Positions 9,769 to 29,737 of a stretch of 42,876 nt of DNA are shown piece by piece. Both the position numbers and the translations under genes were made by a program. How positions within the stretch are numbered: position 1 is the first letter of the stretch; every line of letters starts with the position of its first letter. The notes beneath the pieces were generated by a model. That model was not told the origin of the DNA. It saw only the letters and a program-made list of their open reading frames with translations, and made no database searches. The stretch is from Zetaproteobacteria bacterium (GTDB taxonomy: Bacteria > Pseudomonadota > Zetaproteobacteria > Mariprofundales > Mariprofundaceae), in NCBI GenBank assembly GCA_002746295.2, contig NVWS02000056.1:1-42876 (forward strand), in the 5' to 3' direction.

Positions 9769-11436
9769 TTATGGCTGCATCGCTGACACTTGATACTTCT
9801 GCAAATCTTTAGGCACATACCAAAACTCACTGTTGTAGCCAATGCCCGCAGAGGATGGTTTGATGCCTTGAAAACGCTTATGTACCACGGGCAATGAATA
9901 CGGCGCATATAAAAATACCATCGGTACATCCTGATAAATTTCCTTTTGCATGATGTCATACCATTGTTTGCGCTTGCTTTCATCAAAGGTTTGCGTGGCT
10001 TTGACCAAGGCTTCATCGACTTTGGCATTGTTGTAACTTAAAAAATTAAACTGACGTTTACCTGTTTGAGAGGAATGCCAAATATTGTATTGATCGGGTT
10101 CGGGGGTCAGTGACCAACCCAAAATCACCGCATCAAAATCACGTTTATTGATAAAATTCTCAATAAATGCCGACCATTCAATCAAACGTACCTTCACTTG
10201 AATACCGACTTGCTTCAACCGCTGTTGAATGATTGTCGCGGTGTCTGCACGCTGTTTGTTGCCATTGTTGGTGATGATGGTGAATGATAAAGGTTGACCA
10301 TCCTTATCCAAAATACCATCACCATTGCTATCTTTCCAACCCGCTTTCGCCAGCAATACTTTGGCTTTTTCAGGATTAAATGCGCGTGCATGTAAGGATT
10401 CATTCACCCATATCGTGCCTGGTTTATAAGGCGAGGAAATCATCTCTCCTTGCCCCAACAACACACCATCAATCAGTTCTTGACGGTCAATCGCATACGC
10501 CATGGCTTCGCGCACCCGTTGATCGGCAAACAATGGGCGTTTCAAATTAAATCCCAAGTAAGTATAAACTGATTCAAGGTAGTGATAACGCTGATAATTC
10601 TCTTTCAAAAAAGGTTTCGTTTCAAACAAGCGCTCATATTGTGTCGGTGTTAAGCCCATTTCATCAATATGCCCCGCACTTAACTCCAAAAACTGCGTGG
10701 CAGTATCAGGGATAATGCGCGTTAAATGTTCGGCAACCCATACTTTACCACCATAATAATGGGGGTTGGCTTGCAAGGTGATGGACTGTTGGGATTGCCA
10801 ATCCTTCAAAATATAAGGTCCCATCGTCGCTTTCGGGTGACGTGCCAAGTCGGTTTTCATAATATCTTCGTGTTCAAAGATGTGCTTGGGTAATATCGAA
10901 AGTCCTGCCCATGTCGAAAGCGCAGGTGAATAAACCGTATCATAATGTACGATAAACGTCTGGGCATCGGGTGTTTCAAAGCTTGTGACTTTGGCATAAT
11001 CGGATTTGTAGGCACTTTGCGTATGCTCATTTTGAATCAATGCCAGTGTAAATGCACAATCTTGGGAGGTGAAGGCAATACCATCTGTCCAAAAAATATC
11101 AGGGCGCAAATGAAAGGTAATGGATAAGCCATCATCGGAGACTTGCCAAGATGCGGTGAGTTGGTTGGCAATATGTAAATTTTTATCAAATTTTAACAAG
11201 GATTGATACAACTGACCTGCAATAGCATGGCTAGATGAATCGCCAGCAAGCATGGGAATCAAGGTGCTGGCATCGCCAATGGATGCCGTGACCAAGCGAT
11301 CACCATAGGCAGGACTCATATCGACGGCTTTGCTGTATTGCGTTTGTAGATGAGATTCAGGTTCAGAGGAGCAGCCTGCCAAACCCAACACCACACATAA
11401 AGCGATTAGCTTGAGCGAATGCGTGCAAGAATCCAT
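9769..11436 (-). CDS. Peptide ABC transporter substrate-binding lipoprotein (OppA/DppA type)
   Basis: A 555-residue family-5 solute-binding protein. A lipoprotein signal ends in the lipobox LAGC, so the mature protein is acylated and sits in the periplasm. The motif at about residues 85-125, where 'LRPDIFWTDGIAFTSQD' follows a LTASWQVSDDG stretch, is characteristic, as are RVREAMAYAIDRQEL and WSLTPEPDQYNIW. It probably binds oligopeptides or a similar ligand. No permease or ATPase genes lie nearby, so it is an orphan that must dock to a transporter elsewhere. Its ATG is preceded by AGGAG and overlaps the end of the lytic transglycosylase by 31 bp. That coupling suggests a role in murein peptide recovery, by analogy with MppA; this is inference. 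Confidence 0.88.
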   Translation of the reverse strand: MDSCTHSLKLIALCVVLGLAGCSSEPESHLQTQYSKAVDMSPAYGDRLVTASIGDASTLIPMLAGDSSSHAIAGQLYQSLLKFDKNLHIANQLTASWQVSDDGLSITFHLRPDIFWTDGIAFTSQDCAFTLALIQNEHTQSAYKSDYAKVTSFETPDAQTFIVHYDTVYSPALSTWAGLSILPKHIFEHEDIMKTDLARHPKATMGPYILKDWQSQQSITLQANPHYYGGKVWVAEHLTRIIPDTATQFLELSAGHIDEMGLTPTQYERLFETKPFLKENYQRYHYLESVYTYLGFNLKRPLFADQRVREAMAYAIDRQELIDGVLLGQGEMISSPYKPGTIWVNESLHARAFNPEKAKVLLAKAGWKDSNGDGILDKDGQPLSFTIITNNGNKQRADTATIIQQRLKQVGIQVKVRLIEWSAFIENFINKRDFDAVILGWSLTPEPDQYNIWHSSQTGKRQFNFLSYNNAKVDEALVKATQTFDESKRKQWYDIMQKEIYQDVPMVFLYAPYSLPVVHKRFQGIKPSSAGIGYNSEFWYVPKDLQKYQVSAMQP

Positions 11437-12731
11437 AAGGTATCTCCTGGTCGTATGATATGTTTTTTAGATAATTGATTGGAACGTGAAATAGCATGGG
11501 TTGTCGTCCCAAATCGATGTGAAATACTCCACAAAGAATCGCCTTTGCGTACTTTATAACGAATTCGCCGCCCTTTTGAAAGCAAAGGGTTCACACTCGC
11601 CGTTGCCCGTGCATAGCCATGTGCAGGCACTTTAATGCGCTGACCAATATGCAAAATCTTGGAGAGATGTGGGTTCAAAGCCTTGATATGTTTCGTAGTC
11701 GTGTGGTAAGTACGAGCCAACTGCCATAAAGAATCACCCGAACGAATGCGCATATAAATATCATGCGGTTGCTGCTGTTCACTGCCATATTGTAATTGAT
11801 CCAGCAATGTATTCGGCACATGAATACTCACCGCATGCTGGAAATACTGACTGTAATGCAACTGTGGGTTAAGTCGAAACAAATCATGACGTGATAATTT
11901 TAAACGTTTCTCCAAAACCCGAATATCAATCGGTGGCAATAATGTCACTTTTGTGGTTCTCATCTCTTGAGGAAATGCCACAACATGCAAATGCAACAAG
12001 GCTGTCACCCCCAAAATACGCATGACATAATTTCGCGTCTCTCTCGGCACAGGCATGGTGCGAATGCCATCCGATAGTTGCCATGGGGATTTTTTCAAAC
12101 GCTTGGCTAAACCATACGGTCCCATATTATAAGCTGCAAAAGCCAGCACCCAATTACCAAATTTTTTGCGTTGCTGCATCAAATATTGCGCTGCTGCGCG
12201 TGTGGATATTTCCACATGTCGCCGACCATCACCCGCTTGGGTATCACGTACCCCCAAGCCGTATGCCGTTTTAGGCATCAATTGCCATAAGCCCATCGCC
12301 CCCGTCCGTGATAAAGCATACGGCTGGTACGCCGATTCCACAATCGGAATGACCTGTAAATCTAGGGGAGCGCCAGCATCCTCGAGACCTTTAAGAACTC
12401 GCTCGCGAACCCATCTGGAACGCTCTGCCAAAACATGCCAGTGCCTCGAGAGTGAAGCTTTAACCTGCGCTTCTGCCCAAGCCAAATCATCACTGCGAAC
12501 CCCTGAAAAAAACGGTGAACTCAAGTGATAAGCTGGTCTTGTAGTCATTGGAGTAGGCTTGGAATCTAGCCTGTTTACAGGCTCGAATAAAGCATCCGAA
12601 TCATCCACCAAAACATCACCTTTGGGCGACACACTTTGATCTGGTAATACAGATAAAGCTAGAGGGTGACTACAACCTTCCAAGAACAAACCCAATCCGC
12701 CCATCATAAGAATAAAGAAATATCGAAACAT
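11406..12731 (-). CDS. mltD: MltD-like membrane-bound lytic murein transglycosylase with LysM repeats
   Basis: A 441-residue lipoprotein (lipobox LEGC near residue 20) that cleaves glycan strands of peptidoglycan. The SLT domain at about 120-250 shows the catalytic glutamate in IPIVESAYQP, then GAMGLWQLMPKTA and FAAYNMGP, the classic family-1 motifs. Two LysM modules follow: 'RSGDSLWQLARTYHTT' with its GQRIKVP end, and 'RKGDSLWSISHRFGTT' ending in RPGDTLW. These bind glycan. The protein is a little shorter than E. coli MltD (452). A TATAAT lies on the minus strand at 12754-12749, only about 20 bp from the start codon, and no ribosome site is obvious, so the leader may be very short. Downstream it overlaps the peptide-binding lipoprotein. 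Confidence 0.9.
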   Translation of the reverse strand: MFRYFFILMMGGLGLFLEGCSHPLALSVLPDQSVSPKGDVLVDDSDALFEPVNRLDSKPTPMTTRPAYHLSSPFFSGVRSDDLAWAEAQVKASLSRHWHVLAERSRWVRERVLKGLEDAGAPLDLQVIPIVESAYQPYALSRTGAMGLWQLMPKTAYGLGVRDTQAGDGRRHVEISTRAAAQYLMQQRKKFGNWVLAFAAYNMGPYGLAKRLKKSPWQLSDGIRTMPVPRETRNYVMRILGVTALLHLHVVAFPQEMRTTKVTLLPPIDIRVLEKRLKLSRHDLFRLNPQLHYSQYFQHAVSIHVPNTLLDQLQYGSEQQQPHDIYMRIRSGDSLWQLARTYHTTTKHIKALNPHLSKILHIGQRIKVPAHGYARATASVNPLLSKGRRIRYKVRKGDSLWSISHRFGTTTHAISRSNQLSKKHIIRPGDTLWILARIRSS

Positions 12732-12851: not shown

Positions 12852-15053
12852 ATGCTACTGAAACAACAACGACAGTTGATTGAAAGTGGCGTTGTCACCC
12901 AAGAGCAAATTAAAGATGCTCTACAGCACCCCGACACCCAAAAGCATGGTCTTTTATATTCTCTCCTTGGCATACAAGGCATAGATAGCTCAGCCATCGT
13001 ACAAACACTGGCGCGCATTTATAAAGTACCTTTTTTGGATATTACCAACATCCGCCCAAGCGATGAATTGATAGAGCGTTGCCCTGAAAAACTATGTTTG
13101 GATTACAATTTTATCCCCATTGATTTTCAAAATGGTGAGTTGGTGATTGCCACAGGAAACCCCATGAATTTCTCGGCATTGGATGCCTTGCAATTCAAAT
13201 TGGGTGAGCGGGTCAAAACTATTTTTGCGCGCCCCGATGCCATTCAGAAAAAAATCCGTGATGTTTATCAAGGCAACGCAGCTTTTGACGATGCCATGTC
13301 AGGCTTGGATGATGATGCCAGCTTTGCCACGGAAGACGATCCTGAACACGATGATGACATTGATGCACTGAAAAAGGGTGCCGATGAATCGCCCATTATC
13401 AAATTGGTCAATGGTATTATGGTACAAGCACTTAAACTGGGGGCATCAGATATTCATATTGAAGCAGGCGAGCGTACCAGTATTGTACGTATGCGTGTGG
13501 ACGGGCGTTTGAAAATTGCTTTACAGTTTCCTGTTAAAGCGCATCCCATTGTTATTTCGCGCATAAAAATCACCTCCAAACTGGATATTTCCAACACTCG
13601 CACCCCACAAGATGGTCGTACCCGCATTAAACTATGGGGTAAAGCCTATGATATGCGTGTATCTATTCTACCTTCATTTTATGGCGAAAAAGCGGTGTTG
13701 CGTATTTTGGATAAAAGCGGTTTATCCTTGGATTTGGACATCCTTGGCTTTGAGAAGCTTGCCGATGAACGTGTTCGTGAATCCATCACCAAGCCAACGG
13801 GTGCAGTGTTGGTGACAGGACCTACAGGTTCTGGAAAAACCACCACACTTTATTCCTTCTTGAACCATATCAATGAAGAAGAAAGTAACTTGATTACCGT
13901 TGAAGACCCCGTGGAATTTCAACTTAAAGGCATCAATCAAGTACAAGTCAATGCCAAAGCAGGTATGACATTTGGTGCAGCATTACGTTCTATTTTACGA
14001 CAAGATCCCGACATTGTCATGGTGGGTGAAATTCGTGATGAAGAAACCGCTGAAATTGCTTTGCATGCGGCGCAAACGGGACATATGGTATTATCCACAC
14101 TACATACCAATGATGCACCCTCAACCATCACCCGCTTGATTGATATGGGGATCAAGTCCACCATGCTTTCCTCCTCACTCAATCTCATTGTTGCACAACG
14201 TTTGGCACGTCGCTTATGCCCCAAGTGCAAGAAGAAAAAACGCCCTAGCAATGAATTTTGCGAGCGTTATGGCGTTCCTGAAGGTTTAGAGTTTTATGAA
14301 CCTGTTGGCTGCAAAGCCTGTATGAACATTGGTTATAAGGGTCGTCTTGGTATCCATGAAGTATTGTATGTGAATGACCGCATGCGTGAAATGATTTCAC
14401 GCGCAGCACCCGATCAAGATTTGATGCAAGCGGCGCGTGAAGATGGGATGTTTTGCTTGTTTGAGGATGGCATCAACAAGGCTTTGGCTGGCATCACCAG
14501 TATTGACGAAGTCATTCGCAATTCAAGCCCTCCCGAAGGCTTTCGCCTAGATCAGCGTCTTGCTGACGATGGATCTCTTATGTCTGTAGGCGAGAGTATG
14601 CGCCAAAAAGATAAAGCGCATAACCAAGAAAATTTATACACAGGCAAACAAACTGTATTGATTGTGGATGATTCCAAAAGCATCCGAAGTTTGGTGAAGT
14701 TTGTCTTACAATCAGAAGGTTACGATGTTTTGGATGCCGAAGATGGTCAACAAGGCTGGGATACCTTGCAGCGGCTCAGTAATAGCATCAGCCTTGTCTT
14801 GACCGACTTTGAAATGCCCAACATGAATGGTCCTGAACTGGTGAAAAAAATCCGTGAAAACCCTGCCTATGACCACATTCCAGTGGTCATGCTAACTTCC
14901 AGAAAAGATGAAGAAGATGAAGTTTTTGGTTTGGAATCAGGCGCAGATGATTATATTGGCAAACCCGTTGAGCCTATGAAATTACAAGCACGTGTTAGAA
15001 AAATTCTTTCTATGTATGCCCGAATCGCTTCGGCTATTCAACAAAGGATGTAA
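12852..15053 (+). CDS. PilB/GspE-family type IV pilus ATPase fused to a CheY-like receiver
   Basis: A 733-residue secretion/assembly ATPase. An N-terminal MshEN/GspE-II domain (1-135) is followed by the hexameric ATPase: Walker A GPTGSGKT at 323-330, Walker B-like DPDIVMVGE with D385 and catalytic E393, and the histidine-box segment STLHTNDA. A zinc-type CPKCKKKK...CKAC region starts at C456. Residues ~600-725 are a receiver domain with acidic residues D606/D607 and phosphoacceptor D652 in LTDFEMPNMNG. PilB and GspE normally end after the ATPase, so the receiver is an addition. Immediate downstream genes are CheW, MCP and CheA types, so CheA could phosphorylate the motor directly. No pilin, PilC or PilT genes are in the window. 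Confidence 0.9.
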   Translation: MLLKQQRQLIESGVVTQEQIKDALQHPDTQKHGLLYSLLGIQGIDSSAIVQTLARIYKVPFLDITNIRPSDELIERCPEKLCLDYNFIPIDFQNGELVIATGNPMNFSALDALQFKLGERVKTIFARPDAIQKKIRDVYQGNAAFDDAMSGLDDDASFATEDDPEHDDDIDALKKGADESPIIKLVNGIMVQALKLGASDIHIEAGERTSIVRMRVDGRLKIALQFPVKAHPIVISRIKITSKLDISNTRTPQDGRTRIKLWGKAYDMRVSILPSFYGEKAVLRILDKSGLSLDLDILGFEKLADERVRESITKPTGAVLVTGPTGSGKTTTLYSFLNHINEEESNLITVEDPVEFQLKGINQVQVNAKAGMTFGAALRSILRQDPDIVMVGEIRDEETAEIALHAAQTGHMVLSTLHTNDAPSTITRLIDMGIKSTMLSSSLNLIVAQRLARRLCPKCKKKKRPSNEFCERYGVPEGLEFYEPVGCKACMNIGYKGRLGIHEVLYVNDRMREMISRAAPDQDLMQAAREDGMFCLFEDGINKALAGITSIDEVIRNSSPPEGFRLDQRLADDGSLMSVGESMRQKDKAHNQENLYTGKQTVLIVDDSKSIRSLVKFVLQSEGYDVLDAEDGQQGWDTLQRLSNSISLVLTDFEMPNMNGPELVKKIRENPAYDHIPVVMLTSRKDEEDEVFGLESGADDYIGKPVEPMKLQARVRKILSMYARIASAIQQRM

Positions 15054-15056
15054 GCC

Positions 15057-15536
15057 ATGTCTCCTCAAACCAGTATCCCCCCCAGTTCTCCACCGACAGA
15101 AAATCTTCATGCTAATTTCAATCAAGCTTATGTAGAAGTCATGCAGGTTCGTGTGGGGCAAGAAATTATTCTTATTCCTGTTTCTGATGTGTCTGAAGTG
15201 ATTCATCAACAACGCTTAACCCCTGTACCTATGGCGCCAGACCACTTATTGGGTGTTTGCAATATTCATGGGCAGGTGGTGTGTGTGATTGACCCATGTC
15301 AAGTAATGTCTTTACCCTACAGTAAACAAACATTTGATGATAGCGTACGTTTCATTGTCCTTAGCCATCCTAAAATGCATCTTGCCTTACGTGCAGAAGA
15401 AATCTTATCACTTGAACCCATCCCAGAAGAAACTTTCCTACAGGCTACACAAGGTTCACAGGGGTTTTTCTATCGGAGTTTAAATATCAAAAACCAAGAC
15501 TACCGAATACTTCATACGGCAGCCTTGTTTAAATAA
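15057..15536 (+). CDS. CheW/PilI-like chemotaxis adaptor
   Basis: A 159-residue CheW-domain protein. The fold is recognised by ILIPVSDVSEVIHQQ, the hinge PMAPDHLLGVCNIHGQVVCV and a C-terminal ILHTAALF. CheW proteins bridge receptors and CheA in signalling arrays. It begins 3 bp after the pilB-receiver stop and is followed by the MCP, so by position it plays the PilI part in this Pil-Chp-like cluster. The first 20 residues are serine- and proline-rich and probably disordered. Confidence 0.85.
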   Translation: MSPQTSIPPSSPPTENLHANFNQAYVEVMQVRVGQEIILIPVSDVSEVIHQQRLTPVPMAPDHLLGVCNIHGQVVCVIDPCQVMSLPYSKQTFDDSVRFIVLSHPKMHLALRAEEILSLEPIPEETFLQATQGSQGFFYRSLNIKNQDYRILHTAALFK

Positions 15537-15640: not shown

Positions 15641-17098
15641 ATGACAGACGAGCAAAAACGTACTGTAATCAGTATCCGACAACTGGCGCGTCGGAACACG
15701 CTTATTTCTATTGCATTGTTTGCCATCCTTATCGGCACCGTATTCTTTGCATTTAACCGAGCTTCTGCGGGCATCAATCAAATCTCTACACTCAACAGCC
15801 AACAAACATCCTTAGAACGTTTTCGTGCCTCCCTGCCCAATGTATTATTACCTTTAAATGATTTTACATTGACGGGTAACAAAGAAGATATTGGCAAAAT
15901 CAAGCAGGCATCCAATGAATTCCTAAAATTATACACGCAAGTATCTGCCATGCCTTCACTCCAAGCTGCTGATATTAAAAGGCTCAAAGAAGTCCATGAT
16001 TTGATGCAAGAAGTGATTAAAATTTCACAGGACATCACCAGCGGAAAAATTCCTACTCAAATGGCAAGTAATGTAACCGTCGTGGCACAAAGCCTTGTAT
16101 TTGTAGCCCAAGATAAACTGAACAGCGTAGCAACCCAGCTTGCAAGCTCACTGTCCACCGAGCAAAGTGCCAAAGAAAGTCAAATTCAACTGTACTCCAT
16201 GATTAATGTGGGCATCATTATTTTCATTGTATTCGTCATGGCATTTTTCAACCGTAGCTTTGTCACCAATATTGCAGGTGCTATTGGTCAAATGTCCGAA
16301 GGTGTGAGTCATGCATCCTCAGAAATTCTTACCGCAGTCGATAGTCAAGCAACAGCATCATCAACACAGGCTCAATCCGTGGCAGGCGTGACATCGGAAC
16401 TGGAAGAGATGTCTGGCTCTGCCAAGAAAATCGCGACCACTGCTGCAAGCGTGGAACGCATTGCTGCCGCCACTGCGACTTCTGCTGAAGAAGGCGCTGA
16501 AGCGGTGAATGAAACCATTGGTTATATGGAACGTATTCGTAAAGAAGTGGCACTGATTGCAGAAAAGGTGACCGACTCAGGGCGAAAATCCGAACAAATT
16601 TTAGAATCACTCGGTGCATTGCAAGAACTGGCAGATGAAACCCATCTTCTGGCGCTCAACGCATCCATTGAATCGGCGGCGGCTGGAGAATTTGGTAAAC
16701 GCTTCTCCGTTGTCGCAGGAGAAGTACGCCGTCTTTCTGAACGTGCGCGTCAATTCACCGAAGAAATTCAGATTGTGGTGGATGATGTGAATAAATCAAC
16801 ACGAGAATCCATTGAAGTCACCAAAAAAGGACTGGAGGAAGTGGATAAGGGTGTGAGTGTTGCCAAGAATGCTGGTCAATCCCTCAGCAAGATGAAATCC
16901 ATGTCTGAAAAAACCAGCCAAGCAGTACGCACCATCGCCCAAGCCACCAAACGTCAGGATGAGAGTTCGCAAGAGTTTGTGCTGACCATGCGCCAAATCT
17001 CTGATCTTCTACAAGATTCTGCTGCACAAATGGATAAATCACGTGATGCATCCTATCGACTGAATGATGTGGCAGATGATCTGCAGAAACTCATTTAG
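15641..17098 (+). CDS. Methyl-accepting chemotaxis protein, PilJ-like position, no HAMP
   Basis: A 485-residue receptor. The first membrane helix is at about 17-37, then a helical periplasmic domain of about 150 residues, then the second helix (GIIIFIVFVMAFF, near 190-210). The cytoplasmic signalling hairpin carries [20 protein letters not shown] and SVVAGEVRRLSERA, the conserved tip that contacts CheA and CheW. No HAMP domain is evident between the second helix and the coiled coil, and there is no C-terminal CheR-binding pentapeptide. The start is ATG 15641, with GAGGGG at 15628-15633; an in-frame TTG at 15626 is less likely. Between CheW and CheA it takes the role of PilJ. Confidence 0.88.
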   Translation: MTDEQKRTVISIRQLARRNTLISIALFAILIGTVFFAFNRASAGINQISTLNSQQTSLERFRASLPNVLLPLNDFTLTGNKEDIGKIKQASNEFLKLYTQVSAMPSLQAADIKRLKEVHDLMQEVIKISQDITSGKIPTQMASNVTVVAQSLVFVAQDKLNSVATQLASSLSTEQSAKESQIQLYSMINVGIIIFIVFVMAFFNRSFVTNIAGAIGQMSEGVSHASSEILTAVDSQATASSTQAQSVAGVTSELEEMSGSAKKIATTAASVERIAAATATSAEEGAEAVNETIGYMERIRKEVALIAEKVTDSGRKSEQILESLGALQELADETHLLALNASIESAAAGEFGKRFSVVAGEVRRLSERARQFTEEIQIVVDDVNKSTRESIEVTKKGLEEVDKGVSVAKNAGQSLSKMKSMSEKTSQAVRTIAQATKRQDESSQEFVLTMRQISDLLQDSAAQMDKSRDASYRLNDVADDLQKLI

Positions 17099-17116: not shown

Positions 17117-19897
17117 GTGTCAGGTTTTGACTTATCCAATTTTTTAGCCTCCTTCTTTGATGAGGCTCGTGAACGACTTAGTTCGATTAACCAAGCTTTG
17201 GTCAAATTTGAAGCGGGTGAATTAACAGAAGAAGGCATGGTCGCTTTGCGCCGTGATGCCCATACCATTAAAGGCTCTGCTCTCATGTTGGGGGTCACTG
17301 ATATTGGCGAGGCCGCTCATATTTTCGAAGATATGATGGAACAATTGATGAAGCATCCAAGCTGGCGAAAAGAACCAGCGATGGTTCAATTTCTTTATGA
17401 TATTCATGATGCATTGGATGACCGTCTAAAAGACCCAGATGCTCAACAATTGATTAAGGCTGGACCTTTACAAGCCAGTCAACAGCAACTCATCGACCGT
17501 ATGAATAAACCTATGGATGAACCCACGTCAACACCTGACAACCTTGTTCATTTACCGACGGTTTCAAAGCCTACAGAAGAAGCCCGCCCCCAAGAAACTC
17601 CCACCTTGATTGAATCATTGGATAGAGAAAACCATGATGATGTCAACACCATTGACATTGATATGATGGAAGGCTTTCCAGATTTAGATGGCTGGCTCAA
17701 TGCCGATGAAATTTCCTTTGAAACTATAGAGGAAGTCCCCGTATTGGATCTTGATGATCGTACATCAAACACTGATTTGATAAGTACTTCTGACTCAAAA
17801 TCCATCGTCAACAGCACAGCAAAAGTGCCCACCACTGAACTTATCGGGGCTGGTGAAGCAGAGGCTTGGAAAAAACAGCAACAAGCCAAGCTTACGACCG
17901 AGGCAGCACGTACCCCCATCCTTGACAGCACTTCCGTTTCTCAAGCCGTATCAGTAGAGATAGAACCCAATAAGGATGAAACAACAACAGGCATTGCAAG
18001 TATAGAAATACTTGCAGGTACCAATGTACCCCCCACTTTCACAGACCCCCCCATTCAAAGCCCCCTTCAAGAAGCTAGCTTAGATTCAGATGCTTCTTCA
18101 TTCCGCCCCAATATTGAACAAATGGAAATGAATAAAACAGCCCAACGTAAAAGTTCGGGGCGTTTTTTACGTGTCGATGCAGAGCGTTTGGAGAACCTAT
18201 CCAACCAAGTCATTGAATTGAGTACCCAGCAAGCAAGAGATGAAGCTTTCGAAACCCAATTTACACGCCTATCCAAGGACTTTCGAACATTACAACGTGA
18301 TTTTCAGTACTTTGAAAAATCAGCTGGTGAATTGGATGCAAAAGCCAGCAAACAACTGTTACAACAACTGAATATCGGTTTTGAACAACAGGCACGCCAA
18401 CAACGTCGTTTTATTGAAGACGTTCGTTTTTCTAACATTCGTAATGAATATATGATGCGCGATCTTCGTGATCAAGTCCTTGCACTCATGTTACGGCCTT
18501 TGGATAATATTTTTTCTACCTTTCCGAGAGCGATTCGAGATGTCGCAATCCGCTTGAATAAACGTGTGCGCTTGGTGATTGGTGGCAAAACATTGGAAAT
18601 GGATCAAGGTGTTACCGAGTCCTTGGTTGAACCCCTTGTTCATTTGCTAAATAATGCCGTAGCACATGGCATTGAATCACCCGAAGAACGCTTGGCAGCG
18701 GGTAAACCTGAAGAAGGGCAAGTTTCCATTATTGCACGGCAAAATGGTAGTGAAATTCGCATTGAAATTATGGATGATGGACGTGGCTTGGATACTGAAA
18801 TCATCAAAAAATCCGCCGTTTCTAAAGGCGTTACCACCCAAGTCGAAGCCGATCAAATGGATTCGGCTGAAATCCTTGAAATGATTTTTCGCCCAGGCTT
18901 CACCACAAGGGAGACAGTGGATGCCACTTCAGGACGCGGAATCGGCATGAACGTGGTACAAGATACTGTGCGTCGTCTGACAGGCTCCATCCGTATTCAA
19001 AGTGAGGTTGGGAAGGGAACAAACTTCATTCTATCCATTCCTGTCAGTATTGCGGTTCAGTTTGCCTTGATATTTCGCATGGGTGATATGCGTTTTGGTA
19101 TGCTGACCCATATGGTAGAACAAGCCATTCCTTATCATACTACCCAGGTGCAACGAAGCAGTGATGGCAAAGCGTTTATTCTTTACGAAGACTATCAAGT
19201 CCCTCTTGTGGACATGCGTCATGTCTTAGGCAATACCGATAGCACGCCAGAGAAAAAGAAAGGAAACATCATTATTGCCGAACATATTGAAGGCTATGTT
19301 GGTATCGTCGTGGATGAACTGTTGGATGATATTGAAATTGTGGTGCGTGACCTCGACCCATACATCAAACGTTATAACCCTCAAGGTCTGATGGGCAACA
19401 CCATTGCTTCCGATGGTTCCGTCATCATGCTTTTAGAACCTTATGGTATCAAGGAAATGGGACGCACTTCTCCCGATCAACATATCGAAATTCATGTCAA
19501 AGAAGATGATAAGCTTCATTTTAATATCTTATTGGTGGATGACTCACTGATTGCGCGTGAAGTTGAGAAAAGTATCTTTGAAAGCATCGGTTTTGAAGTC
19601 GATACTGCCATTGATGGTTTGGATGCTTTGGAAAAATTACAGGGCAAGACTTATGATATGGTTGTCACTGATTTGGAAATGCCACGTTTGGATGGGTTTG
19701 GTTTGGTTCGTCGCATTCGTAACCAATCACGTTATGAAAATTTACCATTGATGATTATTTCAACACGTGAAAGTGCCGAAGATCGCATGCGTGCGCTTGA
19801 ATCGGGTGCTGATACTTATATGGTAAAACAGCAACTAAAAGGTGATGAAATTCTTCAAACAGTGAAAGCCCTGATTGGCAAGTTTCCACAACAATAG
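17117..19897 (+). CDS. ChpA-like hybrid CheA histidine kinase with receiver
   Basis: A 926-residue kinase. It has one HPt domain with phosphoacceptor H49 in AHTIKGSALMLG, a long acidic disordered linker (about 140-340), and a CheA catalytic core with HATPase motifs HLLNNAVAHGIE, DDGRGLD and GRGIGMNVV. A CheW-like domain (about 640-780) follows, then a receiver with phosphoacceptor D852 in VTDLEMPRLDG. P. aeruginosa ChpA has many HPt modules; this form has one. The start is GTG 17117, 18 bp after the MCP stop, with only a weak ribosome site. It is the last gene of the plus-strand cluster and the probable phosphodonor for the PilB-fused receiver. Confidence 0.9.
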   Translation: MSGFDLSNFLASFFDEARERLSSINQALVKFEAGELTEEGMVALRRDAHTIKGSALMLGVTDIGEAAHIFEDMMEQLMKHPSWRKEPAMVQFLYDIHDALDDRLKDPDAQQLIKAGPLQASQQQLIDRMNKPMDEPTSTPDNLVHLPTVSKPTEEARPQETPTLIESLDRENHDDVNTIDIDMMEGFPDLDGWLNADEISFETIEEVPVLDLDDRTSNTDLISTSDSKSIVNSTAKVPTTELIGAGEAEAWKKQQQAKLTTEAARTPILDSTSVSQAVSVEIEPNKDETTTGIASIEILAGTNVPPTFTDPPIQSPLQEASLDSDASSFRPNIEQMEMNKTAQRKSSGRFLRVDAERLENLSNQVIELSTQQARDEAFETQFTRLSKDFRTLQRDFQYFEKSAGELDAKASKQLLQQLNIGFEQQARQQRRFIEDVRFSNIRNEYMMRDLRDQVLALMLRPLDNIFSTFPRAIRDVAIRLNKRVRLVIGGKTLEMDQGVTESLVEPLVHLLNNAVAHGIESPEERLAAGKPEEGQVSIIARQNGSEIRIEIMDDGRGLDTEIIKKSAVSKGVTTQVEADQMDSAEILEMIFRPGFTTRETVDATSGRGIGMNVVQDTVRRLTGSIRIQSEVGKGTNFILSIPVSIAVQFALIFRMGDMRFGMLTHMVEQAIPYHTTQVQRSSDGKAFILYEDYQVPLVDMRHVLGNTDSTPEKKKGNIIIAEHIEGYVGIVVDELLDDIEIVVRDLDPYIKRYNPQGLMGNTIASDGSVIMLLEPYGIKEMGRTSPDQHIEIHVKEDDKLHFNILLVDDSLIAREVEKSIFESIGFEVDTAIDGLDALEKLQGKTYDMVVTDLEMPRLDGFGLVRRIRNQSRYENLPLMIISTRESAEDRMRALESGADTYMVKQQLKGDEILQTVKALIGKFPQQ

Positions 19898-20241: not shown

Positions 20242-21075
20242 TCATGATTGTAACTGCCAAATCCGCTTACCTTGAAACATCATAGACTTCCATTTTGAAG
20301 CATGACCTGCCACACGGTCCGCAGCTCCTGTCAGTAAATAAGCATGTGGCTTCATGGTTTTAGCCAAGCGATCAATCACATTTTTTCGTTCTTCAGGTGA
20401 AAAATAAATCAAAACATTGCGACAAAAAACAATATCAAAGGGTCCATAACTACGTGCTCTCATCACCACAGCATCATCCACTAAGTTTGCCTCTTGAAAA
20501 GTCATCATACGCTTTAAATCTTGGCGTACCTGCCATGTTTCTCCTTGCTTTGAGAAGAATCGTGACAATTGTTTTTCGCCCAAGCCACGCTTGACTTCAA
20601 TTTGAGAATAAATGCCTGATTTGCCATAGTTCACAGCTTGCTCAGATAAATCTGTTGCCAAAATTTTCACCCGTTGTGTCGCATTGGGTAATGCTTCAGC
20701 CGCTATCATGGCAATGGAGTAAGGTTCTTGCCCACGCGATGATGCCGCTGACCATATTTTCACAGGTGAATGCATCCCACCCGTATCATTTAAAGCAGGG
20801 AAAATAATCTTTTTCAATGCTTCAAAAGGATAGTTATCACGAAAAAATAAGGTTTCATTTGTCGTCATCTCATCAATCAAAGCTTTGGCAATATCACCTT
20901 TTTCTTGACGTTTAATCCGCATCACCAAGGTGTTGATATCAACAATATCAAACTTACGCAGCAAGACTTGCACCCGTGATCGAATCAAGTAAGCCTTATC
21001 ATCTGCCAACACCAAACCACTGCGTCGTAATAAAAAATCTTGTAAATAAGTAAATAAATCTGAACGTATTGTCAT
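20242..21075 (-). CDS. cheR: Chemotaxis protein methyltransferase CheR
   Basis: A 277-residue SAM-dependent methyltransferase that methylates glutamates on receptors. It has the N-terminal helical domain and the SAM-binding segment KIWSAASSRGQEPYSIAM, where the usual cysteine and threonine of SAACSTGEEPY are serine and arginine. FDIVFCRNVLIYFSPEER is the family's strand-4 motif. It is the last gene of the minus-strand operon, starting 3 bp after cheB. No beta-loop-dependent pentapeptide is seen on either MCP. As the only CheR in the window, it may serve both receptor systems. Confidence 0.92.
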   Translation of the reverse strand: MTIRSDLFTYLQDFLLRRSGLVLADDKAYLIRSRVQVLLRKFDIVDINTLVMRIKRQEKGDIAKALIDEMTTNETLFFRDNYPFEALKKIIFPALNDTGGMHSPVKIWSAASSRGQEPYSIAMIAAEALPNATQRVKILATDLSEQAVNYGKSGIYSQIEVKRGLGEKQLSRFFSKQGETWQVRQDLKRMMTFQEANLVDDAVVMRARSYGPFDIVFCRNVLIYFSPEERKNVIDRLAKTMKPHAYLLTGAADRVAGHASKWKSMMFQGKRIWQLQS

Positions 21076-21078
21076 ACC

Positions 21079-22167
21079 CTAGCCTCCACTCGCTTGTACA
21101 ATGCCCATCGCAATCTCATTGAGCGGTAACACCTCATGCGCCGCACCGCACTTCACTGTTTCACCAGGCATACCCCATACCACACTACTTTGTTCATCTT
21201 GGGCAATCACATAAGCCTGCTTATCTCGCATGGCTTTGGCTCCCGCAGCCCCATCTGCTCCCATGCCTGTCAACACCACTGCCACACAACGTGTTCTCGG
21301 CAATAGTTTCACCAATGAATAAAAGGTGACATCCACCGCTGGTTTACAATGATGCACCTTCTCACCATCCACCAATTTCACACATAACTTTGCACCCATG
21401 CGTTCAATTTCCATATGCACATCACCTGGCGCCACATAAATACAACCACCTTCCAACACCATACCGTCTTTTGCCAACTTCGCTTGCAACTTGGTTTCTC
21501 GATCCAAACGATCCGCCAAAGATTGTAAGAACAACTTCGGCATATGTTGGGTCACCGTAATCGGTAAAGAGAAATTAGCTGGCAACATACTCAATACTTT
21601 ATGCAAGGCTGCTGGACCACCTGTACTGGAACCCATCGCAATCAAATCTGCTTTTTTTGCTGCACGCATACGTTTGGATTTTTGTTGCAGCATCAATGGT
21701 TCCGAAACACGTGAAAATGTATCAACTTTATCACAACCTATGACGCGACTCACACTGCGTGCATGTGGCAAGGTCTTTTTCAACATTTTTAATAAAACAG
21801 CGGTGGGATCACGCTCGGATGCTTTGGGCTTCAAAACAAAATCAAACGCACCGACTTGCAAAGCTTTCAGCGTTTTTTCGTCATCTGTTTCTGACTCACT
21901 GCTAATCACAAGCACACAGACATCAGGTGCTTCATGTTGTAAACACTCAATCACTTCAATGCCATGAAAATGTGGCATTTCCATATCTAGCGTCACCACA
22001 TCAGGCTGTAGTTGTTTGATTTTATTCAACGCATCCCGCCCATCTTTGGCGATACCGACGACTTCAACATGCTTCAATTGCGACATGCATCCTCGAAAGA
22101 AAGTTCGGAATACGACCGAATCATCAACAATTAAAATACGTATTTTTTCCCCGTATTTCGATTTCAT
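21079..22167 (-). CDS. cheB: Chemotaxis response regulator methylesterase CheB
   Basis: A 362-residue protein that removes or deamidates receptor methyl groups. The receiver domain has LIVDDSVVFR and phosphoacceptor D61 in TLDMEMPHFHG. A linker is followed by the methylesterase domain with GSSTGGPAA (catalytic serine about S181), VTQHMPK (histidine) and LTGMGADGAAG (aspartate). ATG 22167 was preferred. A longer start at 22206 is a TTG inside the end of cheW and would add residues before the usual receiver beginning. It lies between cheW and cheR in one operon. Confidence 0.92.
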   Translation of the reverse strand: MKSKYGEKIRILIVDDSVVFRTFFRGCMSQLKHVEVVGIAKDGRDALNKIKQLQPDVVTLDMEMPHFHGIEVIECLQHEAPDVCVLVISSESETDDEKTLKALQVGAFDFVLKPKASERDPTAVLLKMLKKTLPHARSVSRVIGCDKVDTFSRVSEPLMLQQKSKRMRAAKKADLIAMGSSTGGPAALHKVLSMLPANFSLPITVTQHMPKLFLQSLADRLDRETKLQAKLAKDGMVLEGGCIYVAPGDVHMEIERMGAKLCVKLVDGEKVHHCKPAVDVTFYSLVKLLPRTRCVAVVLTGMGADGAAGAKAMRDKQAYVIAQDEQSSVVWGMPGETVKCGAAHEVLPLNEIAMGIVQASGG

Positions 22168-22195
22168 AAGAACTTTCTGCTCTTCATCGTTTCGT

Positions 22196-22705
22196 TTAAT
22201 GCACAACAGCAGAATCAGGTACTTGTGTCTCCAAACCTGGAATCGTCAAAGCAATAAAACGATCCACATTCATCAACACCAATACCCGATCATCTTGTTT
22301 TAACACCCCTTCACTCACCTGCCGCCAAACAGGATCCAGCGAACTGGGGGTGGGTTCATAGTCATCTCGATCCATCAACATCACTTCGCCCACATCATCT
22401 ACAGCCAAACCAAAATCTTCGCCTGAACTACCTTCAATAATAGCAACGTGGAAGGAGGCACCAGCTTCACGTTCTGGTAAGCCCAAGACCTGACGTACAT
22501 CCAATTCAGTAAGCACCCGACCCCGCAAATTAATCAACCCCATCACGGCACTGGGTGACAATGGCATCACCGTTCTTCTATGCCCAGTCACCACCTCACG
22601 CACTTGTTGAACATGTAAACCAATCCATTGGTCCCCCACACGACAGGTCAACAGTTCCAAATCTGAACGCACAAGTTTATTTGCCACATGAACCAAAGCA
22701 TTCAT
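22196..22705 (-). CDS. cheW: Chemotaxis adaptor CheW
   Basis: A 169-residue CheW-domain protein with LLTCRVGDQWIGLHVQQVRE at the N-terminus, the conserved VMGLINLRGRVLTELDVRQV and a GLAVDDVGEVM segment. It links receptors to the large CheA encoded immediately upstream, starting 1 bp after its stop. It differs clearly from the CheW/PilI of the plus-strand cluster, which suggests that the two arrays use separate adaptors. A C-terminal extension of about 15 residues runs past the usual end of the domain. Confidence 0.92.
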   Translation of the reverse strand: MNALVHVANKLVRSDLELLTCRVGDQWIGLHVQQVREVVTGHRRTVMPLSPSAVMGLINLRGRVLTELDVRQVLGLPEREAGASFHVAIIEGSSGEDFGLAVDDVGEVMLMDRDDYEPTPSSLDPVWRQVSEGVLKQDDRVLVLMNVDRFIALTIPGLETQVPDSAVVH

Positions 22706-22706
22706 A

Positions 22707-25643
22707 TCAATCTCCTTGTGTCACAGTGCTGGAAATTAATTCACCTTCCACACTGAATGGCTTCTGATTTTGTATATCATCCATGATAAGTTTCAAACCT
22801 TCGGTCAATGTTTGCCGATCAAATTTAATCATCACATCACGAAATTTTCTCTGGGATTCAACAGGTATTTCATCAATGGGTGTTGCCGTTAATGCCACCA
22901 CAGGCACAGCCGACAACTCTGAACGAGATTTCACCCACTCCAACAAGCCATAACCATCCATATTCGGCATTTCTAAATCGGTAAGAATCAAGTCGGGAAT
23001 TTTATCTTCCAAAATCGCGCAAGCTTCTAAACCATCTTTCGCCACCCAAGTCTCATAATTCAATGTATCCAAGACTGGTATGACCAAGTTCCTGAAAAAA
23101 GTAGCATCTTCAACGAATAAAATAGTCGGTGCGGAAAACTCTTCACTCGATCCCACACTTTTATTGCGTGAAAACCAATCGGGATCCACTTGTTTGACCA
23201 CTTCAAACACATCCACCACTTCAGTAGCAATATCTTCAATCACCGATGTACCTAAAAACAAAGGGTTGTCTGATGTCATTTTTATATCCAAAGGTATCTC
23301 TAAAATATCCACGACTTCTTCCACTTGCAGACACAAGCATTTATAACCATCGGATAAAATAAGACCATAGACACTGTCATCGGGGGATATGTCTCGATGT
23401 AGACCAATCAAAGCACTCCAACGCAGTACAGCAATCACATCATCACGGTATTGAAGTACTTCAGAACTTCCAGAATGTTCAATTTTCTTTTCAGAAAAGC
23501 ATTCCAAACGCTCGATCAATGCCATGGGAATCGCAAAACGTTGCCCACCCTCAGCAAACACCAAGGTGTGCTGTAGCTCGTGGATGGCGACTTCTTTTTC
23601 CTCTTCCAAATGTTGAATGGCCTCGGCTTCTTGTGATAATTTCATCAAGGATGCCAATTCATTACAGTCAAAAATAGGAATCACCACACCATCACCCAAA
23701 ATACTACACCCACCATAAAAACGTGTTTGTTGGAAATGGATACCCAAAGGTTTGACTACAATTTCTTCCGCACCAAAAATTTTATCCACCAACACACCAT
23801 AGGTGCGATCACCAATATCCACCACCACAATCGATCCTTCATTGTCCACATTCTGTTTAAATTCCAGCACTTCCTTCAAACGCATCACGGGCAAGAGTTT
23901 ACCCCGCAAACGATAAAACGGTTGCCCACCAATCAAACGCCATTCACTGGAATCAGCAGGTGCATTCAATAGTTCGCGCACACTCATTTGAGGAATGGCA
24001 AAACGATGTCCATCACAGCCTATAATCATGGCTGAAATAATCGCCAAGGTCAGTGGAATACGAATGCGTAACGTTGTACCCACACCACGTTCACTGCTGA
24101 TGTCCACTGAACCACCCACTTTCTCAATCTCTGTGCGCACCACATCCATGCCCACACCACGTCCAGATAAATTACTCACTTGTTCAGCTGTCGATAAACC
24201 CGCATGAAAAATCAACTGCAAGACAGCTTTATCACTGATAATCGCAGCTTGTTCTTCTGTCAGTACACCCATCGTCACCGCTTTACTTTTCACACGCGAG
24301 GCATCAATACCAGCCCCATCATCTTCAATCAAAATGACAATAAATCCTGACTCTTGCGAAGCCGATAGTTTTAATGTGCCTTCAATTGGTTTTGAAGCAT
24401 TTCGTCTTTTATCAGGCATTTCAATGCCATGATCACAACTGTTCCGAATAATATGCGTCAACGGATCTTTGAGCGCATTGAGAATGGTGCGATCTAGCTC
24501 TGTTTCCTCACCTTCCATCACCACCGTAATTTTTTTATCCAATTGCTTGCCCATATCTCGAACAATACGCGGAATACTGCTCCACACACTTTGAATCGGT
24601 TGCATGCGGGTGCGCAATAGCTGTGCCTGTAATTGTTCGGTGATATGATCCACATCCCGACTCACACGCACATATTCCATATTGCCAGAGCTCATCATCA
24701 TCTGCATCAAACGATTTCGCGTCAGCACCAATTCACCCACTTGGTTCATCAAACTATCCAACAGTTCAATATCAACACGAATACTGCCAGCACTTTTCGG
24801 TCGTTGTTGTTTACTACCAGTTTTAGGCACGGCTTTCACCGCTGTATTTGTCGCTTTGGGCGTTTGGGGTTTTGCAGCAGATTTGGCAGCAGTTTGGGGC
24901 GAAGGTGATATTGATTTTTTGTTCTTACTTGGGGGGGTGCTGTCGTCTTCGTCTTTATTTTTAGCATGATCTTCAACATTGTTTTTTGATTCAGACTTCG
25001 CCACATGCTTTACGACCATGGCTGCTTCTTTTAATGTTTTTTTAGCCACCCCTAAAATTTTCAAAGCATCCGAAGGGGTTAAACCATCCGTCTCTCGCAA
25101 ACGGGCAAAACCAGCATCTATCATATCTTGCGCTGTAAACAATTTCGCACCCTTCAAGGTCGTCAACACCAGTGCATCAAACTCACCCAACCAATCAAGG
25201 TTTTGTGCTGCTTCCTCAAGCTCTTCTAAAGCCTCTTGTCCAGCCGATGTTGAAAAATCTTCCACCATACGTTCGGCGATATGCAAACGTTCAATCAAAT
25301 CACTGTGATCCAAATCTGGTTCGGCACCTTCGGCTTCCAAACCTTCCAACAAAGCTTTGATACCATCGGTACATTCAAGTAGCAAAGACACCACTTCATC
25401 ATTGACCAAATACTTGGTAGCGCGGATTTTACCCAACAGGTTTTCACCTGCATGGGCTGTTTTTTGCAAGCCCACCAAGCCCAAAAAGCCACAACTACCT
25501 TTAACAGTATGCACCGCTCGGAAAATACCATCCAACAAGTCCACGTTACTGGGGTGCATTTCCAAATCCATCAATTGTTGTTCAATGGATGCTAAATTCT
25601 CATTACTTTCTGTTAAAAACTCACTCAGTAGCTCTTCATCCAT
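22707..25643 (-). CDS. cheA: CheA histidine kinase with two CheW domains and a receiver
   Basis: A 978-residue kinase. The HPt domain carries H45 in AVHTVKGSCGFLG. A variable region and lysine/proline-rich linker (about 225-285) follow, then the dimerisation segment DSLMNQVGELVLTRNRLMQ. The HATPase domain has HIIRNSCDHGIE, EDDGAGID and GRGVGMDVV. The first CheW domain is at about 535-680, a second at about 690-820, and a receiver has phosphoacceptor D889 in LTDLEMPNMDG. Ordinary CheA has one CheW domain and no receiver. The extra modules could let one kinase bridge more partners in the array and act as a phosphate sink. A good ribosome site (AGGAG) precedes ATG 25643. Confidence 0.93.
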   Translation of the reverse strand: MDEELLSEFLTESNENLASIEQQLMDLEMHPSNVDLLDGIFRAVHTVKGSCGFLGLVGLQKTAHAGENLLGKIRATKYLVNDEVVSLLLECTDGIKALLEGLEAEGAEPDLDHSDLIERLHIAERMVEDFSTSAGQEALEELEEAAQNLDWLGEFDALVLTTLKGAKLFTAQDMIDAGFARLRETDGLTPSDALKILGVAKKTLKEAAMVVKHVAKSESKNNVEDHAKNKDEDDSTPPSKNKKSISPSPQTAAKSAAKPQTPKATNTAVKAVPKTGSKQQRPKSAGSIRVDIELLDSLMNQVGELVLTRNRLMQMMMSSGNMEYVRVSRDVDHITEQLQAQLLRTRMQPIQSVWSSIPRIVRDMGKQLDKKITVVMEGEETELDRTILNALKDPLTHIIRNSCDHGIEMPDKRRNASKPIEGTLKLSASQESGFIVILIEDDGAGIDASRVKSKAVTMGVLTEEQAAIISDKAVLQLIFHAGLSTAEQVSNLSGRGVGMDVVRTEIEKVGGSVDISSERGVGTTLRIRIPLTLAIISAMIIGCDGHRFAIPQMSVRELLNAPADSSEWRLIGGQPFYRLRGKLLPVMRLKEVLEFKQNVDNEGSIVVVDIGDRTYGVLVDKIFGAEEIVVKPLGIHFQQTRFYGGCSILGDGVVIPIFDCNELASLMKLSQEAEAIQHLEEEKEVAIHELQHTLVFAEGGQRFAIPMALIERLECFSEKKIEHSGSSEVLQYRDDVIAVLRWSALIGLHRDISPDDSVYGLILSDGYKCLCLQVEEVVDILEIPLDIKMTSDNPLFLGTSVIEDIATEVVDVFEVVKQVDPDWFSRNKSVGSSEEFSAPTILFVEDATFFRNLVIPVLDTLNYETWVAKDGLEACAILEDKIPDLILTDLEMPNMDGYGLLEWVKSRSELSAVPVVALTATPIDEIPVESQRKFRDVMIKFDRQTLTEGLKLIMDDIQNQKPFSVEGELISSTVTQGD

Positions 25644-25695
25644 TGCCTTTGCTCCTGTTTCTTTGCCACCCGAATGACCTGCATAACATCAGGCC

Positions 25696-26073
25696 TTAAA
25701 ACAACATCCCGCCCACAACTTCAATCAATGCATCAGGTTCAAAGGGTTTCACCAGCCATGCTGAAACCCCTGATTCATGCCCGACACTTTTTTTATCTTC
25801 ACCCGACTCGGTGGTGAGCATCACAATCGGTGTATGAGCATAACTGGGTATTTTTCGGATATTTTGAATCATGGTTAGCCCATCCATATTGGGCATATTC
25901 AAATCTGTTAGTATCAAATCATAAGGGTTATCTGCTGAGGCTGTCGCTTTATCCAAACCAATTTGACCATCTTTGGCTTCATCCACATTAAAATCAACTT
26001 TCTTTAAAGTACGCTTCACAGTAATCCGCACCATGGTCGAATCTTCAACAATCAAAATTCTAGGTCCTGTCAT
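25696..26073 (-). CDS. cheY: Single-domain response regulator CheY
   Basis: A 125-residue stand-alone receiver with the acidic pair in LIVEDSTMVR, phosphoacceptor in LTDLNMPNMDG, the switch threonine in VMLTTESG and the lysine in LVKPFEP. Its ATG overlaps the stop of the upstream channel gene in ATGA, so the two are translationally coupled. Transfer from the CheA encoded next is the obvious source of phosphate. Its output may be the flagellar or pilus motor; no flagellar genes are in the window. An upstream in-frame start inside the channel gene is rejected. Confidence 0.92.
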   Translation of the reverse strand: MTGPRILIVEDSTMVRITVKRTLKKVDFNVDEAKDGQIGLDKATASADNPYDLILTDLNMPNMDGLTMIQNIRKIPSYAHTPIVMLTTESGEDKKSVGHESGVSAWLVKPFEPDALIEVVGGMLF

Positions 26074-29000: not shown

Positions 29001-29468
29001 GGCAAAGATACGCAACATACGCAGCATATACATGCCACGAAACAGCCGTGCGATACGCAAATAAACCGCCTGATCCAATATATCCGCTGACACAAACAAA
29101 GCCGAAAACAAACTCAGTGTTGCCAAACCATCCAACATAAGAAAAATAAACTCAGTGCGATTACGGAAATGGTTTTCCTTTTGCAACCAAAAACGCAACA
29201 TCCACTCCCCCGCAAAGAACAACGCCAAGGGTGCCAACACAAACCAATATCGTTCAAACATGCACAAGCCCAATGCCGCCACGATAAGGATGGCATAACG
29301 GGGATGTGAAAACACACGTTCACCCAACAGCAGCCACTCACGGCGTGAATGCCCACCAGATAAACGAGATTTCCAGTGAGAAACTTTCACCTCATCTACA
29401 TTTTGTACATGCTCATCACCTTGGATTGGCGCAATATCACGCTCATCTTTTTGATGTTTAGCTGCCAT
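26070..29468 (-). CDS. CASTOR/POLLUX-like ion channel with RCK domains and CheZ-like C-terminal helix
   Basis: A 1132-residue membrane protein. The first ~375 residues hold many hydrophobic helices. One is S4-like, with arginines 138, 141, 144, 150 and 153 at mostly three-residue spacing; a second, weaker one is near 245-267. Before the presumed pore helix is a calcium-loop motif, DINDDGVTNAQD (304-315). Then come LYVFRLMVDPGA and a long last helix. REYLVIVGWNEQSYG (385 on) starts RCK-like domains, as in plant CASTOR/POLLUX channels. After an acidic linker (about 960-1030) the helical tail contains LQNIDRVSQRL, with D1082 and Q1086 in the D-x-x-x-Q spacing of CheZ. ATG 29468 has AAAGG 8 bp upstream. 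The 269 bp before it, back to the MCP stop, show no convincing gene. It overlaps cheY by 4 bp. Channel fold is likely, ion unknown, phosphatase role inferred. Confidence 0.7.
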   Translation of the reverse strand: MAAKHQKDERDIAPIQGDEHVQNVDEVKVSHWKSRLSGGHSRREWLLLGERVFSHPRYAILIVAALGLCMFERYWFVLAPLALFFAGEWMLRFWLQKENHFRNRTEFIFLMLDGLATLSLFSALFVSADILDQAVYLRIARLFRGMYMLRMLRIFAFLTFDTFIYSLPFALLVIGMVGLAIAVPSVALYMGVLLILEAACRAYSIWKVLPKGGRRNTEFGFVLLDGVSSVVLLGLMPEFSPYWVAIRAIRFLVMLNPLGNISLAAKRVAAMQEVRSETSMLAGMMVAMMMMGGLSVVYLYPQMDINDDGVTNAQDYVPVQVVLYVFRLMVDPGAATTEAFSPWLLGLTVLLVLSGVFFFALVVSLGSNVMHYMLRELSNSPLSAREYLVIVGWNEQSYGVLKRLDAMFSRMRQRFAAVWVFHDKAVSGASTVGSWLSVREVDPGSRNLAEHFKLSGVQQMIIFRRKQDIHLVDTHHLVRNFGVPVVLVSEAIMPNKLHSMYADSMGMKILDSSSITARMLYQMHHCAWMPELGIRLLDAVAGETGLYTLAWAFDVEVGQGKPWLLMGDERQALGVWLTYCFSQGVNLLAGRREDGSFVLFSDLAHGKVGGHFVDVVGLGGNTLLWSGILETNLQQENLSQKEHALKQFVWPETWDLSMLFMGWHTGLPAMIEEMALKHHKLTLHVFSTRDADELAEQLRRLKGACARAKAQCSCELKVSVHPWDGLDSEGWVGLLRGCKVMMFYPEEREGDSEDSLLELWFHEVARSLSQRKQNVKWWTPPKLMVLPRSGGNVASFEMAGMDYPLLEVDVGSPDAFHDTFMARQLLTQTRQHLYPEASTQDEKSYAFVDAMLGDAVLVEDVLTTRLVEVSAGMDWVPIYQEALARGWMLMAYVMPELDADGQTMFGLLDRSFPQPQDETGSRMHLLAGSPVMEMDVPIHTMNLLFCRRGVLDVSLDDNKDVSEDIVVAVKAEPKMEAVAKIETVVEEVVDEQSDREVVREENELAVPEEVKEGEIMNDSVWPQTADKRLLQVLKKQVQGSLELLSESSEDGLIKLTEILDMGVSDAVEEAIMAALTDLQNIDRVSQRLTNVQTCLDDWSMHVGDASQAALWEEEVAKRYVMEEERMVLKGEL

Positions 29469-29737
29469 ATACACTACCTTTAAACAAAAGGAATCGTATT
29501 TTTTTATGCAAAATCGAACCACTGATGATACCACAGACACTTGGGAAGACCTGATCACTGTTGAATCACCCGAATCATCTGCGTCACACACCGAAGAATC
29601 AGGGCAAGAGGATATTTCAACGGGTTCAAGCTGGGAAATACGTGCGACACCATTCGATTCTCCAACTTGTATCGTCGCCTGTGCCATTACTGACAAGCAC
29701 GGCGATGATAAAGTTCTTGGAGGAACTGCTGGGGGCT

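Follow-up and report, generated by a model that had tools for sequence, protein, structure and literature searches.

A PilB-family ATPase with a fused receiver in a conserved chemosensory cluster of Zetaproteobacteria, a putative direct target of a ChpA-like kinase

PilB-REC is a PilB-family ATPase that carries a receiver domain (REC) at its C-terminus. It is encoded in the window, the whole 42,876-nucleotide stretch of Zetaproteobacteria DNA analysed here, and is followed by genes for a CheW-like adaptor, a methyl-accepting chemotaxis protein (MCP), and a ChpA-like CheA. We lean, modestly, towards the reading that ChpA directly phosphorylates the receiver of this second extension ATPase. This is the simplest reading because the phosphorylation site and ChpA are both intact, the two proteins co-occur, and the cluster contains no pilG or pilH. 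These bacteria may therefore do without the usual messenger that links sensor to pilus motor. PilB-REC is conserved across most of the class, where the output step seems to be written into a single protein. Chemosensory kinase control of pilus motors is unsettled even in Pseudomonas, and PilB-REC turns the question of whether a kinase acts directly on the extension ATPase into one that can be asked in vitro with two proteins. The features of the locus are collected in Table 1.

Table 1. Features of the PilB-REC locus, in window positions.
Feature	Position	Strand	Basis
Second flanking gene, neighbour in many class loci	9769..11436	-	ORF
Divergent flanking gene, neighbour in many class loci	11406..12731	-	ORF
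pilB-rec, PilB-family ATPase with C-terminal receiver, 733 aa	12852..15053	+	ORF, Pfam, homologue search
MshEN domain of PilB-REC, residues 57-141	13020..13274	+	Pfam, 73.8 bits
T2SSE region of PilB-REC, residues 177-556	13380..14519	+	Pfam, 459 bits
Variable linker of PilB-REC from ATPase core to receiver, residues 557-600	14520..14651	+	Mean identity 0.38
Receiver (REC) of PilB-REC, residues 602-716	14655..14999	+	Pfam Response_reg
CheW-like adaptor	15057..15536	+	ORF, Pfam
Methyl-accepting chemotaxis protein (MCP)	15641..17098	+	ORF, Pfam
ChpA-like CheA, 926 aa: Hpt (H49), HATPase, CheW, C-terminal REC (D808/D809, D852)	17117..19897	+	
Hpt domain of ChpA, presumed phosphate donor	17141..17401	+	Pfam

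The T2SSE region of PilB-REC is made up of the N2 domain and a RecA-like core with Walker A and B motifs, a His box, and zinc-binding cysteines. The Response_reg match, at 98.7 bits (cut-off 30.2), covers profile positions 1-111 of 111. The receiver has the acidic pair D606/D607 and the phospho-acceptor D652. Also present are T682 and K704, the remaining usual receiver residues. The response-regulator residue set (acidic pair, phospho-Asp, Thr/Ser, and Lys) is complete. A preliminary description of this DNA had reported a complete fused receiver with D606/D607 and D652, followed by genes for CheW, an MCP, and a ChpA-like CheA; the full-length Pfam match and the open reading frames confirm both statements, and the numbering is correct. 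It had also stated that PilB/GspE ATPases normally stop after the ATPase core, which holds as well: a REC is found in just 2 of 80 other family proteins, at the C-terminus in one and at the N-terminus in the other.

PilB-REC scores 624.3 bits against the PilB equivalog TIGR02538 (cut-off 675.65) and 570.0 bits against the GspE model TIGR02533 (cut-off 630.25). Because it falls under both cut-offs, "pilus extension ATPase" is best taken as a statement at family level. The fused proteins listed from across the class score approximately 562-643 bits against TIGR02538, all under the cut-off, and the lowest of these are partial. The best relatives with solved structures are PilB proteins, and PilB-REC shares with them the MshEN (N1) domain, N2, the RecA-like core with Walker A/B, and the zinc cysteines. 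Unlike PilB, it has a C-terminal receiver and a sub-cut-off score, lies outside the pilBCD locus, and belongs to a clade of its own: in a quick tree, the ATPase parts of all PilB-REC proteins group together, apart from the PilB and GspE of the window genome. An AlphaFold2 model built with 5 sequences has a mean pLDDT of 53.8 and a pTM of 0.30 and was set aside. The MshEN c-di-GMP motif (two 24-residue motifs, in the relaxed form of PMC5013675) is found in 0 of 46 PilB-REC proteins. Lost c-di-GMP binding was rejected as a hallmark of PilB-REC, as 67 of 80 other members of the family, and the ordinary PilB of this genome, are without the motif too.

The window genome also encodes an ordinary, unfused PilB on contig C30 (743 bits, cut-off 675.65). 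Its gene adjoins pilC and genes that, by sequence and order, look like pilS/pilR and a peptidase gene. The PilB-REC gene is not beside pilC. A separate GspE is above its own cut-off. Because the ordinary PilB is present in the same genome, PilB-REC is a paralogue that acts as a second motor or in motor regulation, and not as the sole pilus motor. The platform family PF00482 has only two genes in this genome, pilC and gspF, versus four extension-type ATPases, so PilB-REC most likely works on the same PilC as the ordinary PilB. The fourth of these ATPases is an 815-residue protein, also on C30 (L049:1106-3553), with a weak N-terminal DUF4388 match; no platform gene of its own was found in the genome. 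Three tandem PilT-family genes are located on contig C119 of the same genome (L051:8098-11441).

PilB-REC was called "the motor" in the preliminary description. The protein is indeed a PilB-family ATPase with a receiver, but as a paralogue beside an ordinary PilB it is not the motor as such. The same description held that pilG/pilH and an unfused pilB carrying the function elsewhere in the genome would count against its proposal. An unfused pilB is present; as for pilG/pilH, the cluster has neither, and none of the genome receivers placed in a tree of REC domains groups with PilG. Among class genomes, 64 of 78 have a PilB above the cut-off. Read off the list of scores, ordinary PilB accompanies PilB-REC in 47 of the 55 genomes that have the fused protein; the eight that remain are draft assemblies. 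In keeping with the favoured reading, the four genomes of genus g6 without a PilB above the cut-off are also without PilB-REC.

The class sample is composed of 78 Zetaproteobacteria genomes, searched with the PilB-REC protein and with an alignment of its C-terminus. Together, and counting one piece at a contig end, these searches find PilB-REC, complete or fragmentary, in 55 of them. Most class genomes have full-length fused homologues that are 52-98% identical to the window protein. Since such homologues occur in dozens of genomes, neither a frameshift nor misassembly accounts for the fusion. Named relatives (L093-L095) are Zetaproteobacteria and Mariprofundaceae. Outside the class, among the matches listed, one of 320 sampled phylum genomes (G078) exceeds the unfused background, and distant fusions with weaker scores may be missed. 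G078 belongs to another class and has PilB-REC, CheW, a small gene, MCP, and ChpA, with the same two flanking genes.

The gene order PilB-REC, CheW, MCP, ChpA on one strand is found in 31 of the 40 loci read in the class, which come from 39 genomes and include that of the window. The search for further fusions and their neighbours that the preliminary description proposed thus returns both the protein and its setting. In five of the 31 loci pilB-rec is not whole: it is in two pieces at a contig end in G027 and G071, is interrupted by a stop codon in G056, and is reduced in G014 and G040. The remaining nine loci include three with PilB-REC alone (G061, G062, and G067) and two with CheW-MCP-ChpA without PilB-REC (G043 and G075). 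In G006, PilB-REC and CheW are together and the rest of the cluster is on another contig. Three loci are cut by contig ends (the second copy of G016, G042, and G074). The G016 draft has two PilB-REC clusters (L070 and L183), 90% and 61% identical to that of the window, and the second may be contamination. By genome, PilB-REC and a ChpA orthologue are both present in 52 of 78, PilB-REC only in 3, ChpA only in 4, and neither in 19 (Fisher p ~1e-11, kinship not corrected).

Within the window, PilB-REC and CheW are separated by 3 bp and MCP and ChpA by 18 bp. The four genes probably form an operon, judging by their spacing and conservation; a promoter and terminator scan of the cluster gave matches no commoner than in shuffled sequence. 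No ligand-binding domain is recognised by Pfam in the MCP. Of the two flanking genes, the divergent neighbour is presumably a lytic transglycosylase with LysM repeats and the second presumably a gene for a peptide-ABC-transporter substrate-binding-like protein.

Conservation of the receiver was examined in 46 distinct PilB-REC homologues. This set includes the G078 protein and the G040 protein, which has no ATPase core, and is limited to matches that reach residue 700 and are at least 45% identical. D606, D652, and K704 are invariant (46/46). D607 and T682 are each present in 45 proteins, and only one protein does not have all five residues: the orphan PilB-REC of G062, with D607R and T682S, whose genome has no ChpA orthologue. 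This protein (L180:618-2795) also has a long branch. The orphans of G061 and G067 have an intact receiver site even though ChpA is absent, so receiver decay does not automatically accompany loss of the kinase. These two proteins, which stand alone in L084 and L181, may have another kinase as partner.

The motifs of the motor part are conserved as well. Walker A, Walker B, and the His box are present in 45 of 46 proteins, G040 being the exception, and the zinc-binding cysteines in all 31 rows of a first alignment in which the window protein is entered twice. Mean identity is highest in the ATPase core (0.76), followed by the REC (0.68) and the linker (0.38). In an analysis of dN/dS by region, synonymous sites are saturated in most pairs; the usable closest pair (G015) gives 0.022 for the REC, a value of little weight. 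The kinase is likewise intact. Among 30 ChpA proteins, each of the 29 that can be aligned over the Hpt has its histidine, and the ATP-binding N, G1, and G2 boxes and the REC acceptor are preserved. Pfam recognises a single Hpt in the ChpA of the window, and most of the 30 aligned proteins have one Hpt-like His motif.

The nearest known system is Pil-Chp of Pseudomonas aeruginosa (PilG/PilH/PilI/PilJ/PilK/ChpA), which is tied to type IV pili as the PilB-REC cluster is. Both systems have CheW, MCP, and a CheA with a C-terminal REC in one cluster. Unlike Pil-Chp, the PilB-REC cluster has no PilG, PilH, PilK, or ChpB, the latter two being the dedicated methyltransferase and methylesterase, and its kinase has a single Hpt where that of Pil-Chp has many. 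The position of pilG/pilH is occupied by a receiver-fused PilB-family motor. The absence of pilG/pilH noted in the preliminary description extends from this cluster to every class locus read. Canonical ChpA loci of other proteobacteria, read identically, do show PilG and PilH.

In a tree of REC domains, the fused receivers, including that of G078, form one clade (99/95) apart from PilG (100/100) and PilH, and the REC of the window's ChpA falls among those of canonical ChpA proteins (93/83). The tree has 73 rows on a short alignment and does not settle the deep branching order. One ChpA REC (L189) is entered twice, the second time labelled as PilB-REC, and a 1091-residue kinase of L075, unrelated to ChpA, bears a ChpA label; both lie where their true identity would put them. 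Derivation of the PilB-REC receiver from PilG or PilH is unsupported, as it groups with neither.

It is quite improbable that the true output of ChpA is an orphan CheY-like receiver elsewhere in the genome, or its own REC, with PilB-REC serving another kinase or acting as a sink. The genome has nine receiver frames of single-domain size, and kinase clusters without PilB-REC and PilB-REC without the kinase both exist. However, the adjacency and co-occurrence of PilB-REC and ChpA are conserved. Moreover, none of the genome receivers placed in the tree, which omits those of 13 of the 40 REC matches (long frames), groups with PilG, and two of the free receivers are located in other che clusters.

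Natural variants bear on the function of the two halves of PilB-REC. In G040 a 503-residue frame (L178:1906-3417) encodes MshEN, the N2 portion of T2SSE, and a receiver that is intact. The entire RecA-like core (residues 290-572) is missing in frame, and CheW, MCP, and ChpA follow normally. In G014, residues 1-44 and 674-730 remain as a single in-frame remnant. In G043 and G075 pilB-rec is cleanly lost. All four genomes have an ordinary PilB; each case is a single draft genome, and most of these drafts are incomplete. These variants show that a genome can do without the motor part and still retain the receiver. The core-less G040 protein implies that the module can be maintained even when PilB-REC does not hydrolyse ATP.

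Because of these variants, an alternative is retained, although it is rather unlikely, in which PilB-REC is mainly a regulatory subunit. Its MshEN and N2 domains would either assemble with ordinary PilB at PilC/PilM or compete with it there. Through the receiver, ChpA would add or remove this modifier, whose own ATPase activity would be less important. The combination found in G040, the ordinary PilB in 47 of 55 PilB-REC genomes, and the single pilC of the window genome are in keeping with such a role. However, the core-less case is one draft genome, and the Walker motifs and His box in 45 of 46 proteins, within the best-conserved region, indicate that hydrolysis is usually selected.

Under the favoured reading, direct phosphorylation by ChpA, the four genes would together be an output module through which chemosensing acts on type IVa pili. 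The ChpA-like kinase, controlled by the MCP and CheW, would autophosphorylate its single Hpt at His49. The phosphoryl group would then pass to Asp652 of the PilB-REC receiver and change either the ATPase activity of PilB-REC or its recruitment to the pilus machine, presumably the same one that is driven by ordinary PilB. The receiver of ChpA itself would act as a phosphate sink or brake. Evidence against the direct reading is that G043 and G075 have the cluster without PilB-REC and that G061, G062, and G067 have PilB-REC without a ChpA orthologue, the receiver site being intact in G061 and G067; the loss of the ATPase core in G040 also counts against it. The wiring of kinase to motor proposed in the preliminary description is therefore upheld in part: it agrees with the missing pilG/pilH, the intact sites, and the co-occurrence, but PilB-REC is not the only possible output of ChpA, because G043 and G075 keep CheW-MCP-ChpA without it. 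A separate CheY-like output may exist, given the other free receivers in the genome. Genomes with the motor but no kinase, with the kinase but no motor, or with the receiver but no ATPase core offer ready-made natural comparisons.

A more far-reaching form of this mechanism is possible but doubtful. Here the response regulator would be the motor itself, and the kinase would phosphorylate receiver-bearing subunits within the pilus extension hexamer, with no diffusible messenger of the CheY/PilG type. The hexamer could be pure or mixed with ordinary PilB. If true, a single phosphotransfer at the machine would couple sensing to pilus extension.

The closest experimental precedent for a receiver acting on an extension ATPase is EmvR of Xanthomonas oryzae. 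This stand-alone receiver is reported to bind PilB and to cut its ATPase activity by ~40% in a phospho-Asp-dependent manner (PMC11973254). Unlike EmvR, described there as a separate protein with a ColS-type kinase, the PilB-REC receiver is fused and lies in a chemosensory cluster. In P. aeruginosa, PilG/PilH are reported to act on PilB via localisation, FimX, and cAMP (PMC12632253).

A comparable function in targeting, modelled on what PilG does for PilB in P. aeruginosa, is improbable for the fused receiver. The receiver would serve as a polar-targeting or array-tethering tag that brings the motor to the sensing pole by attaching to the ChpA array, whether or not it is phosphorylated. In P. 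aeruginosa, PilB and FimX reportedly become delocalised when PilG is lost or is no longer phosphorylated (PMC12632253), and the REC of FimX, which has no phospho-Asp, reportedly matters for localisation (PMC11656802). A pure tag, however, would not require all five catalytic receiver residues, and the full set occurs in 45 of 46 proteins.

In the accessible parts of the open-access full-text literature, no paper was found that describes a receiver-fused PilB within a chemosensory operon. The available text of a 2024 PilB review (PMC11656802) does not mention "receiver", and its three mentions of "REC domain" are all about FimX. The association of MshEN with REC is mentioned in print, in the part available of PMC5013675. 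REC-bearing PilB-family proteins of other build also exist in Calditrichota and Armatimonadota. In the available portions of zetaproteobacterial genome papers, Wsp, Flp pili, and few MCPs are described, not this cluster (PMC5513912, PMC3179512). PilB-REC and its neighbours are a candidate module for the control of surface behaviour in these marine iron oxidisers, and none was found described in the accessible open-access literature searched.

Other receiver-bearing ATPases are found in distant phyla. A Calditrichota MAG encodes a PilB/GspE-family ATPase with a C-terminal receiver (L096:483-2891), whose gsp-like operon also contains peptidase and pseudopilin-like genes. Unlike PilB-REC, it has no che genes in its operon and is on another branch; it looks like a separate fusion event. 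A PilB-family ATPase of Armatimonadota (L164:8108-10573) has an N-terminal receiver-like domain in which the phospho-Asp is apparently absent.

In the window, a separate minus-strand che cluster (20242-31981) meets the PilB-REC cluster tail to tail. It is made up of CheR, CheB, CheW, a CheA with REC, CheY, a 1208-residue multi-helix protein, and an MCP. The CheR and CheB genes at 20242-22206 are part of this cluster and not of the PilB-REC cluster. The multi-helix protein is unusual in its position between CheY and the MCP.
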